DNA of 64,000 nt, taken from assembly GCF_001715535.1 (NCBI RefSeq), contig NZ_CP017015.1:806001-870000 (forward strand). Direction: 5' to 3'. The stretch comes from Spiroplasma helicoides. Its GTDB lineage: Bacteria; Bacillota_I; Bacilli_A; Mycoplasmatales; Mycoplasmataceae. The position numbers and the translations under genes were made by a program. The notes under the pieces are model-generated. The model worked only from the letters and a program-made list of their open reading frames with translations, ran no database searches and was not told where the DNA came from. Positions 43,151 to 51,012 of the stretch are shown one piece after another (the stretch's first letter is position 1; each line of letters begins with the position of its first letter).

Positions 43151-43230
43151 AAACGTTCTCCTAACTTATTTTATTATAAATGTTAGTTGGCAAACTTACT
43201 CTATAAGTTAATAAAAAGTTTAAATTTATT

Positions 43231-43258
43231 TTGTTTAATGACTTTTTTTCTTTATAAT
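43231..43258 (+). promoter_or_regulatory. promoter of the lipoprotein pair
   Basis: TTGTTT (43231-43236), a 16-base spacer and TATAAT (43253-43258) lie 33 bases before the GTG start. Confidence 0.6.
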
Positions 43259-43291
43259 TACTTTGATAACAAAATTCAAGGAGTGAATAGT

Positions 43292-45595
43292 GTGAAAAAG
43301 TTATTAACACTACTAAGCAGCTTATCACTAATCGGAAGTGCTGGAACAATGGCAGTTTCATGTGGTAGCAAATATGATATTAAACAAGACGGGAACTCTG
43401 TTTTAGTTAAATTCTTAACTTCATTAGACGGACACGCCCAATTAGATTCCTCAGACTTATTGTGGGAATTGATAAATAGTTCGGGACCAACAAAAAGAGA
43501 ATCATTTTTATTAGAAATGCTTCAATTGTTAAATGTTTCATTATTAGCAAATTCTGAAACAGTTATGAACAAAGATGAGAAAGACTACAATAGTAACAAA
43601 GATTACAACAAAGGTCTTAAAGAAGCTTTAAAATACAAATGAGATACTTTACAAAAATCTGTAGATCTACAAATGCAAAGAGAAAAAGATACTTACAGAG
43701 TTAAAAATGGTAAAAGCTGAGAAAAAGAATGAAGAAAAATGCTTGTTGAGAAATATACAGTGTATCAAGAAGATACTAAAGATATGGATCAATCTTTCTT
43801 AGAAAACAAATATAAAGCAAATATTCTATTATCAGACTCAACCAATAGTGCTTCAAAAGCAATTTTAGATGTTTTACTAAATACAGATAGCTATGGAGTT
43901 AACTGAGTTTCAATTCAATCAGTTAAAACAAAATTAGCAAACTTATTAGATGTTATTGGTGATGATGCAAAATTTGAACAAGTTTATAACACTGATAAAA
44001 AAGCAATATCACAAATATTGAATGCACAAACTAATGATACAAGCAAATGAGTTGATGTAAACTTGAACAAACCTTCAGATTCTTCATCTTCAGAAGTATC
44101 TTTATCAGCAGCTGATGCAAAAGCTAAAATCCAAAACATTAAAACAACTTATATAAAAAATGACGTGCCAGAAGATATTTTACAATGACAAACTAGCTCT
44201 TCTGATACAAGAAAAGGTATGTTAAGTAAATCTCAACTATACTTTTTAAATAAATTTTATGAAACTAAAGCACCATTAGCTATTAGTGAAATCACAATTC
44301 CATTTGCAACAAATGGAAAATTTGATGACGGATTAACTTATGATGACTTTAAAGGTGATAATGATTTAAGTGCAATTGATGCAACTAAATTATTGGCAAC
44401 ATTAACATCTAATGGAGATACAAATTTACCTACTCCAAGTGAACCAGGTGAATCAGAAGATGATTCAGATTTAGATCTTGTTCAAGTGGATGAAGCTGGA
44501 CAAAAAGACAACAATCAATTTTGAATTTCTGCTTTGAGAGATAATACAAGAGTTACTTCAATTCTTTCAACAGCAACAGTTAAAAAATATGATAAATTAT
44601 TAACTTTATCATCAACTGATTTTTCAAATACTTTAAAAACTGTTGTTTATGATTACGTATTTGGAAACGATAAAGTTAAACCAGCAACAATTGATCCAAA
44701 ACTTAAAGTTGAAGATTTAACTTCAAATGTTGACAAAGATGCTCTTAAAAAGAACTTTGAAACTCAAATAATTACACCATTATCTAGAAAATCAACAGAT
44801 GGTAAAGACTTTTATGGTGTTTTAAAAGGTTATAACGATAAACTTATGTTTATGGAAACAGATGGGTTACACATCGTGTCAATCGATGGTTACAATAAAT
44901 TAAAAACTTATTCAGAATCAAATGAATCTGATTTAACACAATTGCAATGATTTAATAATTTCCATAAATTAGATGACAATAAAAAAGTAGCTTATTTATC
45001 AGGGGTTGGAGTTACTGATGAAACCGACTATATGAAACATTTAAATAGTGGTATCAAAAGTGATTACCTAAGATATTTAGTTAATAGCTCATTAATTGGA
45101 GGTATTAGTGATGCTCCTGTTTCATTTGATATAGTTTCTGACTTGAAAAAATGAGTTTCATTAACAAGTTCAACAGATAGTGAAACATATTGAATGACAT
45201 CAGTATTTACTTATTTCAAAGATATAACATCTATTGATACAGTTGACAACTTTGTAAAACAATTAGTTGTTTTTGGACAAGATGATCCAAAAAACCAACA
45301 CGGGGATGAAGTGGCAAAATCTCTTGAAGGTTGAACTGTAGATAAAATAACTGTTGCAGAAACAAACTTATCTATAGCTCCAGTTATTAGATTTATGGAT
45401 AAATATACAAATTGAAAAAAAGAAGTTGCTGCAAATACAACTTCTGGATATCCAAAATCAATGATAAATAATGAAAAATTTAGTTCTGATACTTTAGATG
45501 CTACTGTATCTGCTATTTGAAGCATCGAAAAACCAGTCGTATCAAAAAGTCTTGCAATGCATTACATAAGCAATCAATTAGGGGGTAATTTATAA
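43292..45595 (+). CDS. large lipoprotein, unknown function
   Basis: A 767-residue surface lipoprotein starting at GTG behind GGAG. The signal peptide (KKLLTLLSSLSLIGSAG) ends in the lipobox AVSC with Cys near residue 24. The mature part is acidic and Ser/Asp/Lys-rich, with helical segments and a Pro/Ser/Glu-rich low-complexity stretch near residues 390-410. About a dozen TGA codons are Trp. Its stop overlaps the next lipoprotein start (TAATG). A role at the cell surface is inferred; no family was recognised. Confidence 0.88.
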
Positions 45596-47316
45596 TGAAA
45601 AAACTTTTAGGATTACTAGGAGCTGCATCATTAGTTGTTTCTACCTCAGCTGTTGCTGTTGCATGTAATAAAGATAGACCAACATCAGCAAAATTAAACC
45701 GTGATTTAGCAAGACAATTAATTGCATCAATTGCTGGTGGAGATCCATCTTTAGCATATAAAGATTTTGGAGATCTATTCTCTGATGCAGATATTACAGC
45801 AACTGTTGTAAAAATTATTAATGATTTATTAGGTAAAAAATATGGTTATGAATCTACAAATGCAAATTTAGATAAATTAGGTTTACAAAAATATGAAGAC
45901 CTTGGTGAAAATGGTAAATTACCTGATTCATTTTTAAACAACTATAACTTGCAAGCAGGAACTGTAGCTGAAGATTTATTGTTTACTGAATACAGTACAT
46001 CGATATCAAGCAATAGATTAGATTTAACTCAAATAGACTCAAAACTTTATTCATTAAACCCAACTGAAGATGTTGTTGTAAAAGATGTTAAAAACAACAC
46101 ATTTACAGTTAAAGCTAAATCTAAAATAAGTATTTTAAAAGATGGTGGAAAAAAAGTTTGATCAATTAGAGCGGAAGACAAAAGCACTCCATCTAATACT
46201 CCAGAATTAGCTGATTTAACTAGTTCAACAAATCCATTTTATGTAAATGACGACAAAGGTGCAGAACATCAAATTACTGCAAAAACTGCTTTAAGACTAA
46301 GATTTCAAGATTATTTTGATAATAAATTAGTAAAAGATATCATCGATAACATCTTGACTATGTCTTACATTGACTCAAATGCATTTTCAATTTTACCAAC
46401 ATCAAACGAATCAACAGATTATGGAGCATATATTAATACTAGTTCTCCCCTATTTGCAAAAACTCAATCATGATTTACAACAAATACAACAGGAACTGGT
46501 AGAAATTGAACTACAAACGTTAGAATGGTTTGATCTTATAAATTTGAAAGAAAAAATGAAACTAAAGTAACTACAGCATTAAATGATATTTATTCTAAAG
46601 CAGTTGACCCAACAAATGGAGAAATATTAAAAGATAAAAGTTTAATAAAAGATGTTATGGGTGAACTTGCAACCGCTTTGCAAAAAGATAACCTAATATA
46701 TAATGGTGATAACTCAAATGCTTATGACTCATTCTTTGGAAATCAAGGATATAAAGGGTTTACAGTTTATGATAATGGTTCATCATTAGGAACTAGTCCA
46801 ATTGCTTCAAAAAGTTATGAAAGTGCTGTTAAAGCAGCTACAAAAGCAGGAATCTTGATGAAATCTGGAAATCCATATTATGAAGATTCAAGCGATAAAA
46901 ATATTGAAGAAATTGTCTTTGTACTTCCAATATATATGATTGAATTATTAGGAGCAAGTGTTGAATCAAGTGGACAAAGCACTTATGAAGTTCAAGGTGC
47001 AACTGATGATAGTAAGAAAGCAATTCAATTTGGTTGATCTGGAATCAACAACACAAAATATGCAGATATCTGAAATCAAGACAATAATAAAGAATATCAT
47101 TCAAAAGATGTTCAAAATTTAATTAAAGACTCAAAAGAAAAAGCAAGAGCTATGGTAAACCAAATTAAATATTTAGTTTCACAAGATAGCTCAACTTCAG
47201 AAATAGCTAAAACAGTACTTTATTCAAAATACTTAGATGCTGATTTGGTTTATTATGCTGGTTTATATGATTCAATTGGAAAATACATTAAAACAGATAA
47301 AGATGAAGATAAATAA
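45595..47316 (+). CDS. large lipoprotein, unknown function
   Basis: A 573-residue surface lipoprotein. The signal peptide (KKLLGLLGAASLVVSTSA) is followed by the lipobox AVAC with Cys at residue 24. The mature part starts with a helical RDLARQLIASIAGGDPS segment and is rich in Ser, Thr, Asn and Asp, with Trp from TGA. It is translationally coupled to the preceding lipoprotein and shares its layout, suggesting a two-component surface complex or an old duplication. Function unknown. Confidence 0.88.
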
Positions 47317-48826: not shown

Positions 48827-48861
48827 ATAATAATTTCCTCTTGTCAATAATATATTTTAAC

Positions 48862-48888
48862 AAAAAAAAGCACTTTTTTAAAGGTGCT
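48862..48888 (-). terminator. terminator after the acyltransferase-like gene
   Basis: AAGCACCTTT / AAAGTGCTT-type stem followed by eight T on the minus strand. Confidence 0.85.
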
Positions 48889-51012
48889 TTAAATTAACAA
48901 CCCTGGATTTGTAATTATTTTGTTAAATTCTTGAACTAGCAACGTTGCTTTATTTAAATCTATAAAGTTATTATCAAAACTCAATGTTACGTTTACATAG
49001 CTAGATAAAATCATTTCTCCTTTAACTTTAGAATGTACATCACCAATAGCTAAAGAAATCACACTACTATTTGCTAATTGTAAATTTGATGAAAGTATAT
49101 TATAATCTGATAAATCTAGTAAAACAACTTTTTGTGTTTTTTGACCAAATGGACTATGTATTATTCTTTTTGATATCTCTAAAATAGAGTCATCTTTATT
49201 TATCGAAATATCTTTATATTCAAATAATTTCTTAAATTTTTTTCCAAGACTAATCATTTTGAGACCATCTAGATTTAATTCTTTAAATTCATCTAAAACT
49301 ACTCTAAGTGCTTTTATATAGAAACTTGATAAATTAAATTCGATACCTTTTAGAGAAAATGATTTTTCCATCAATGCATATAGATTTAATAATCCTGTTA
49401 TATCAACCTCAAAGTTTAGTACACTTACATTTCTTGATGAATTATTGATTGAAACTCTTTCATTGTTTAAATTAGTAGATGAGCTTTGCAATAAATTATT
49501 CAAATTTCTAATTTCAATTTCTAAATCATTAATTTTTTTTCTTTGAGTATGAATTTCTGAAACAGCTTGATTTTTACCCATTGAAAATAAAGGACTTCTA
49601 ATTTTTTCTTTTAAATATAAAACTTGTTTATTTGCTTTATATATATCCCTTTTCATTTCTTCAATTGTATGTTTTAATTTACCATCAATGTGATGTTCTT
49701 CATGTTTCTTTTTAAATTCATTAGGTAGCAAGTCTTTGTCTTCACGCAATTTTGAACCTTGTTGCTCCAAAATTTTAATATGATTTTCTTCTTTAAATTG
49801 AGGTCTCTCTGCAAAAACTTTTTCAACTTTTTTATCAATTTGTTCTAAATCTTCAAAATTGAATTCTTCAATTAGTGATTGATCATTTTTTTGAGATAAT
49901 CTATCAAAATCGTAATTTTTATTTTGCTCCTCAGGTTTTTCAGCATCATTTAAAGATTTTTCATCATGAGCAATACTTTTTTCTGATTTTTCATTTAATT
50001 CAGAATTTGCTAATTTTAGTTCATTGTTTTCTTTTAATATTTTTTCTTCTATAACATTGATTGATCTAGAATTTTCTACTATTGGTTCTTGACTTTCATG
50101 TTTCAAAGCTTCTTCTATATCAATTTTATTTAAAACTGGACTTTTATTTATAAAATTAGTATCTTCATTTGTATCAATAGTTTTTTCTAGAAAGTATTCT
50201 TTTTCTGAATTCTCAAAACTTTCAAAATTAATACTATTCAAATTATCTAATTCTTTTGTTATCCCCTGAGCATCAACAACATTATTATTGATACTGCTAA
50301 AATTATCTTCATAACTTATTTTTTTGTTGTTGTTTTCTTCTCCAATGCTAAATGGCTTTTTATCATTAAAGTCAAATGTTTTAGTTGATTCATCATCTTC
50401 AATTATAGTTTCTTTAATGCTGATTTCATCTATAACTATAGGTTCATCATCGATGTCTTTAACTTCAGAAGATTCAGTCTCTATGTCTTCTTTTATTTCA
50501 AAATCTCCATCATTTTTATTTTCATTATTATGCGCTAATTCTTTTTCATTGTTAATGTATTCATCAATTGTTGATTCTTTATTAAACTCAAAATCATTGG
50601 TTGTATCTTCGCTTTCAATCTCTAAAGAATTCAATTCCTCAAGATCATAAGTATTATTAATTTCAGAATCAACTTCTATTGTTTCAGTTCTGTTTAAATT
50701 TTCAATAACATTAAAATTTTCTAAACCCTCTTTAAGAGTATCATTCATTTCTGAAGGTTTTCTTAACAAAACGTCTAACTCTCTTCAATTAATAACATCA
50801 AAAAGCGTATCTCCATGCGATACAATTAAAGATTCAATTATATATATATTTCTAATATATCCATTTATAGGAGATTTGATTTCAAACTTCTCAACTTGTG
50901 TAGAAACTTTTGCTAATAAATCGCCAGCTTTTACTGGTTGACCATCACTAACCAAAACACTTTCTACTATACCTTTGTATTTGCGCGAGTTTTTGAATTT
51001 AACTTTTTCCAT
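48889..51012 (-). CDS. acyltransferase (E2)-like pseudoenzyme with degenerate lipoyl domain and long acidic/coiled-coil insert
   Basis: A 707-residue protein. Residues 1-76 read as a lipoyl/biotinyl domain (KAGDLLAKVSTQVEKFEI then KSPINGYI), but the usual DKA of the modified hairpin is QVE, so the acceptor Lys is absent. Residues about 80-440 are very acidic and probably disordered; about 440-520 are coiled coil. Residues 528-707 align by eye with the 2-oxoacid dehydrogenase acyltransferase domain (FEVDITGLLNLY, SSFYIKALRVVLDEF, SVISLAIGDVHSKV), but the catalytic HRxxDG is NNFIDL at about 681-686 and the CoA-binding middle is shortened. Probably structural. An in-frame TGA joins the two parts. 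Confidence 0.72.

Follow-up and report, generated by a model that had tools for sequence, protein, structure and literature searches.

E2 cores are self-assembling cages. The E2 of the pyruvate dehydrogenase complex (PDC), PdhC/AceF, combines a lipoyl domain (PF00364), a peripheral-subunit-binding domain (PSBD, PF02817) and a core domain (PF00198). In E2 enzymes, a short C-terminal helix provides the knob of a conserved knob-into-hole contact between trimers (PMC8421416). The eukaryotic PDC also includes E3BP (protein X), a non-catalytic E2 paralogue with disordered sections and a core that is reduced in fungi (PMC10156792, PMC8626477).

Here we describe a gene located in a stretch of 64,000 nucleotides (hereafter the window, meaning the whole stretch that was analysed), whose product shares with PdhC/AceF the order of head, linker and CAT-like core, profile matches at both ends and a C-terminal NP-x-L-L tail. 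By contrast, this protein and its orthologues, termed family A, possess neither the lipoyl lysine, nor the PSBD, nor the catalytic His, and they carry an acidic linker of 215-589 residues and a shortened core domain; moreover, the gene lies outside the pdh operon and is kept in genomes without a PDC. Family A comprises 28 orthologues (that of the host genome G000 and 27 others) from five genera, all with a common layout and with open frames of 479-856 codons. The nearest known system is E3BP of the eukaryotic PDC, which differs in that it keeps an E3-specific PSBD and acts inside the PDC, whereas family A has no PSBD and occurs in some genomes where the PDC is absent. We regard family A as a non-catalytic E2 paralogue that has become independent of its complex. 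The literature searched, which covered openly accessible main texts, yielded no description of a pseudo-E2 from Spiroplasma.

Gene context and domain organization of family A

The host genome is a single contig of 1.33 Mb read with translation table 4, and it carries Spiroplasma-type genes for fibril and several MreB proteins. The open reading frame fills exactly the interval listed in Table 1 and is intact, its single TGA being read as Trp. Ahead of the ATG lies an AGAGG stretch resembling a ribosome-binding site, read directly in the sequence. The stop codon is followed by a terminator-like stem that a terminator scan did not list, its loop exceeding the limit of the scan. The upstream neighbour is a trmFO-like gene (GIDA match), and the downstream neighbour encodes an OB-fold plus HD protein with a YhaM-like layout. 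These neighbours are largely conserved across the orthologues, with the OB/HD gene alongside and either trmFO or, in genus g8, a phosphoglucomutase-like gene. Elsewhere in the window, two adjoining large lipoprotein-type genes (43187-45595 and 45595-47316, both on the + strand, encoding 802 and 573 residues with a signal sequence plus Cys) have no Pfam match and lie on the strand opposite to most of the surrounding genes.

Table 1. Features of the family A gene in window coordinates, with residues numbered in the encoded protein
Feature	Position	Strand	Basis or remark
Whole gene, family A pseudo-E2, 707 codons plus stop	48889..51012	-	Translation table 4; TGA = Trp at residue 76 (W76)
Lipoyl-fold (barrel-sandwich) head, residues 1-83	50764..51012	-	PF00364, 27.7 bits; 28/28 orthologues match; most conserved part of the family
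V40 codon, lipoyl-lysine position	50893..50895	-	Flanked by conserved T38-Q39; never Lys in 28 orthologues
Acidic linker, residues 84-524 (441 residues)	49441..50763	-	Composition; charge/hydropathy-disordered
Linker motif D-S-[IL]-T-x-E-L, here AQGITKELDNLNS, residues 248-260	50233..50271	-	Recurrent motif
Heptad (coiled-coil-like) stretch, residues 444-471	49600..49683	-	Score reached by 2/300 linker shuffles
Pseudo-E2 (CAT-like) domain, residues 525-707	48892..49440	-	Profile matches to E2 cores; hhalign
N681 codon, catalytic-His position	48970..48972	-	Never His; orthologues show Q, E, N, S, K, T and other residues
C-terminal NPGLLI, aligned with the E2 inter-trimer knob	48892..48909	-	Both P703 and G704 unchanged across all 28
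Terminator-like stem AAAGCAC/GTGCTTT, loop of 10, then T run	48859..48888	-	Directly 3' of the stop; read by eye

Profile searches assigned the two ends of the protein to the domains that the preliminary description had read by eye, a lipoyl domain at the N-terminus and an acyltransferase fold at the C-terminus. The match to Biotin_lipoyl covers residues 14-72 and lies above the cut-off of 22.1 bits. The C-terminus of the window protein by itself gives a weak match to 2-oxoacid_dh (PF00198), at 19.9 bits against a cut-off of 23, but 17 of the 28 orthologues match this family, the best with an E-value of 5.9e-44, which makes the E2 identity firm. A profile of the C-terminal domain searched against the PDB retrieved essentially only solved E2 cores, including 3mae (2.4e-17, the best), 1b5s (6.9e-16) and human protein X (6h60, 5e-13). 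In addition, hhalign, with a query of 23 family A rows from which the most canonical rows had been left out, aligned the domain at 98.4% each with the PdhC of the same group and with a second family (family B, see below) over about 180 columns (179 for PdhC). Single-sequence AlphaFold models were uninformative, with a mean pLDDT of 37 for the C-terminal domain and 41 for the head, and scans of genome contigs with the window protein or the head alignment yielded zero real relatives.

In NCBIfam, the window protein gave sub-threshold barrel-sandwich matches only. One of them resembles the HlyD/RND membrane-fusion adaptors (TIGR01730), which share the barrel-sandwich head; however, its 37.8 bits are far under the cut-off of 94.9, the C-terminus of family A is an E2 domain, and the window protein contains no transmembrane-like segment, its maximal 19-residue hydropathy being 1.24. 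An adaptor of this type was rejected on the scores and the absence of such a segment.

The two domains are bridged by a linker that is acidic and charge/hydropathy-disordered in all 28 orthologues. The preliminary description, which proposed an acidic, coiled-coil insert of about 350 residues, captured the acidic and disordered character and a short heptad stretch, but underestimated the length (Table 1). The motif D-S-[IL]-T-x-E-L has 36 matches in 21 of the 28 linkers, with one to three copies in each, compared to a mean of 2.8 and a maximum of 9 in shuffles; as the motif was picked after inspection of the alignment and the rows are related, this excess is descriptive. A second recurrent motif, F-L-S-[KR]-F, is found in 12 of the 28 orthologues (for example L004, L007, L008, L013 and L018) and is absent from the window protein.

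Lost chemistry and retained constraint

Both carrier and catalytic residues of E2 have been lost throughout family A. At the lipoyl-lysine position, the 28 orthologues have Leu (17), Val (3), Asn (3) or other residues, and zero Lys. The preliminary description had placed QVE at the modified DKA; the loss of the lysine stands, whereas the position is now specified, as the Asp-Lys pair aligns with Q39-V40 and the lysine site is V40. The preceding T38 and Q39 are each conserved in 27 of the 28 orthologues. In the C-terminal domain, NNFIDL indeed replaces the catalytic HRxxDG, with N681 at the position of the His. The Asp and Gly of this motif vary among the orthologues as well, no substitute residue is conserved, and the variability at the His position (2.70 bits) exceeds the median of the domain (2.18 bits).

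The PSBD is missing too, as had been suspected: the window protein has no match to PF02817 (E3_binding) at E-values up to 10, and this domain is absent from the families matched by the 28 members, whereas PdhC of the same genome scores 56.3 bits. That genome holds the second, intact pdhC for which the preliminary description had recommended a check; its lipoyl, PSBD and core domains are at full strength, and it reads DHKVIDG at the active site.

Purifying selection acts on the head and the C-terminal domain alike. In most of the informative pairs, dN/dS ranges over 0.03-0.09 for the head, 0.015-0.20 for the C-terminal domain and 0.17-0.42 for the linker; in noisier pairs, one nearly identical and one the most distant, it reaches 0.25, 0.39 and 0.70, respectively. 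The most constrained stretch of the C-terminal domain is its very end, NPG-[LFY]-L-I, in which N702 and L706 are conserved in 27 of the 28 orthologues besides the invariant Pro-Gly pair. One further family A copy in g8 ends in NPALLL. As the catalytic columns vary while the tail and the head are conserved, constraint has shifted away from the active site, towards the assembly contact and the head. In the genus of the window protein, the C-terminal domain is shortened to about 180 residues, compared to about 230, and the usual first-helix motif is unrecognisable, which suggests that a full cage may not form. Altogether, the purifying selection, the variable catalytic columns and the persistence in genomes without pyruvate dehydrogenase bear out the earlier proposal of a function without the original chemistry. 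The cage that was also proposed would be in keeping with the conserved tail, which fits the E2 knob-into-hole contact.

Family B and the distribution of both families

A second pseudo-E2 family, family B, is encoded outside the window (C1:936532-939759, 1075 residues in the host genome). It resembles family A in having a lysine-less N-terminal head, a long disordered middle and an E2 core without the catalytic His. Its core is better conserved than that of family A (PF00198, 1.7e-63, about 215 bits), with the His replaced by Gln (TVDQRIIDAA), whereas its head is below the Pfam threshold in the host genome and matches Biotin_lipoyl in 4 of 15 members. The two families further differ in the C-terminus, -PEILTxS in family B compared to NPGxLI in family A, and in the middle, where family B has conserved segments and Gln-rich repeats of its own but not the D-S-I-T-x-E-L motif. 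In a quick tree of E2 domains, family A, family B and catalytic PdhC form three separate groups (SH-aLRT 99, 97 and 93), the mutual order of which is unsure owing to the long branches of family A. In the same tree, the catalytic PdhC of G009 (L049, genus g1) falls among those of g2/g5 and apart from g1, which suggests a horizontal exchange of pdh genes.

Family A is present in genera g1 (20/20 genomes), g7, g8, g9 and g12. Family B occurs in these genera and also in g6 and g11, from which family A is absent, and in two f9 genomes. Two B-like genes of g11 (L067:954-2555 and L068:1043-3013) begin in the conserved middle segment and seemingly lack the lipoyl-like head. Broken copies were seen for family A in G087 (L112, G087:C1:86500-91500) and for family B in G077 (L105, G077:C1:311500-317500), the latter adjoining transposase-like genes.

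The cytoskeletal genes have an overlapping distribution. Fibril is present in g1, g6-g9, g11 and g12; these genera and f9 carry strong multi-copy MreB. Genera g2-g5 and g10 have neither fibril nor strong MreB, and neither A nor B. Within f9, G067 carries intact MreB and B, G056 has an intact B beside MreB copies interrupted by stops, G077 has an MreB fragment and the broken B, and G062 and G072 lack both MreB and B. Family f5 has divergent MreB-like genes and neither A nor B. A and B are confined to genomes that carry fibril, multiple MreB or both, a pattern that suggests a link to the cytoskeleton but could also stem from shared ancestry and genome decay. The fibril gene of the host genome itself (C1 about 424.3-425.8 kb, L091, outside the window) is split across two reading frames, by either a sequencing error or a real mutation, and the copies of its relatives are intact.

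Most A-positive genomes also have pdhC, and many pdhC-positive genomes are without A and B. Three genomes of about 99% completeness have no catalytic E2, with E1 matches at background level in G048 and G084 and a partial E1 in G083. All three keep an intact A of 590-626 codons; B could be read as an intact frame of 988-990 codons in G048 and G084, and its score in G083 is 225 bits. The two families are therefore not merely subunits of the complex. This speaks against a PDC-subunit role as their general function; A and B could still contact the PDC where it is present.

A proposed structural hub and its alternatives

We propose that family A is a non-catalytic E2 descendant that acts as a multivalent structural hub, a reading to which we assign a probability of about 0.6. 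The C-terminal pseudo-E2 domain would form the core, at least as a trimer and probably as a larger assembly through the retained C-terminal knob. From this core, the long acidic disordered arm with its short coiled coil would extend, and its recurring short motifs may contribute to partner binding. The lysine-less lipoyl-fold head at the tip of the arm would serve as a protein-binding module, as suggested by its conservation, the highest within the family, and by the nearly invariant Thr-Gln in its hairpin. Family B, which follows the same plan in the same genome, would be a likely partner or a parallel scaffold. As both families occur only together with a Spiroplasma-type cytoskeleton, the client might first be sought there.

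A more specific form of this hub, in which it binds one specific cytoskeletal partner (MreB, fibril, FtsZ or the cell tip) to organize polarity or anchoring, is possible but doubtful. It agrees with the confinement of A and B to genera with fibril and/or multiple MreB, with their absence where both are missing, and with the f9 genomes, in which absence of MreB coincides with absence of B and an MreB fragment with a broken B. Nevertheless, shared ancestry and genome decay could yield the same pattern, G056 keeps B intact beside MreB copies with stops, and in f5, MreB-like genes occur in the absence of both families. By annotation, no E2-like protein is present among the 16 reported for the Triton-insoluble fraction, or ribbon, of S. 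eriocheiris (PMC5289999). In addition, fibril and MreB suffice for helicity in Mycoplasma capricolum (PMC9663586), so a role of A and B in the ribbon is not essential and they would be accessory. The broadest version, that duplicated PDC E2 cores became paired non-metabolic cage or lattice hubs, A and B, which tether MreB/fibril, the cell tip or the division machinery through their arms and heads in helical wall-less bacteria, is a tentative picture that we rate as rather unlikely.

The remaining explanations keep family A closer to its origin. An E3BP-like subunit built into the pyruvate dehydrogenase core, where it would anchor or tune the complex, has a precedent in E3BP itself, with its disordered linkers and reduced core, and gains from the match of human protein X to the family profile and from the pdhC carried by most A-bearing genomes. 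It would nonetheless have neither an E3-binding domain nor a lipoyl lysine and be encoded outside the pdh operon, many pdhC genomes do without A and B, and the co-occurrence with the PDC that is typical of E3BP breaks down in G048, G083 and G084, which retain both families without a catalytic E2 or an intact E1. This reading is improbable and was rejected as the main one, since A and B persist without the PDC. Still less probable is an enzyme or carrier with altered residues, be it a domain that binds a ligand or an acyltransferase that relies on different side chains. The CAT-like fold contains an inter-subunit channel and the domain is under purifying selection, but in the HRxxDG motif His, Asp and Gly vary freely with no conserved replacement, and the carrier lysine is gone in all 28 members. 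That family A is a decaying, functionless duplicate of pdhC is scarcely credible; the loss of all catalytic residues and the broken copy in the relative G087 would fit, yet dN/dS is far below 1 at both ends and the frames are open in 28 genomes across deep divergence. A pseudogene was rejected on these grounds.

If the structural hub proposed here is correct, the core of a metabolic megacomplex would have been exapted as a scaffold, without its carrier lysine, its partner-binding domain and its active site. Besides MreB and fibril, helical Mollicutes would thereby gain two candidate structural proteins, conserved and apparently undescribed, with possible roles in polarity, division or motility.
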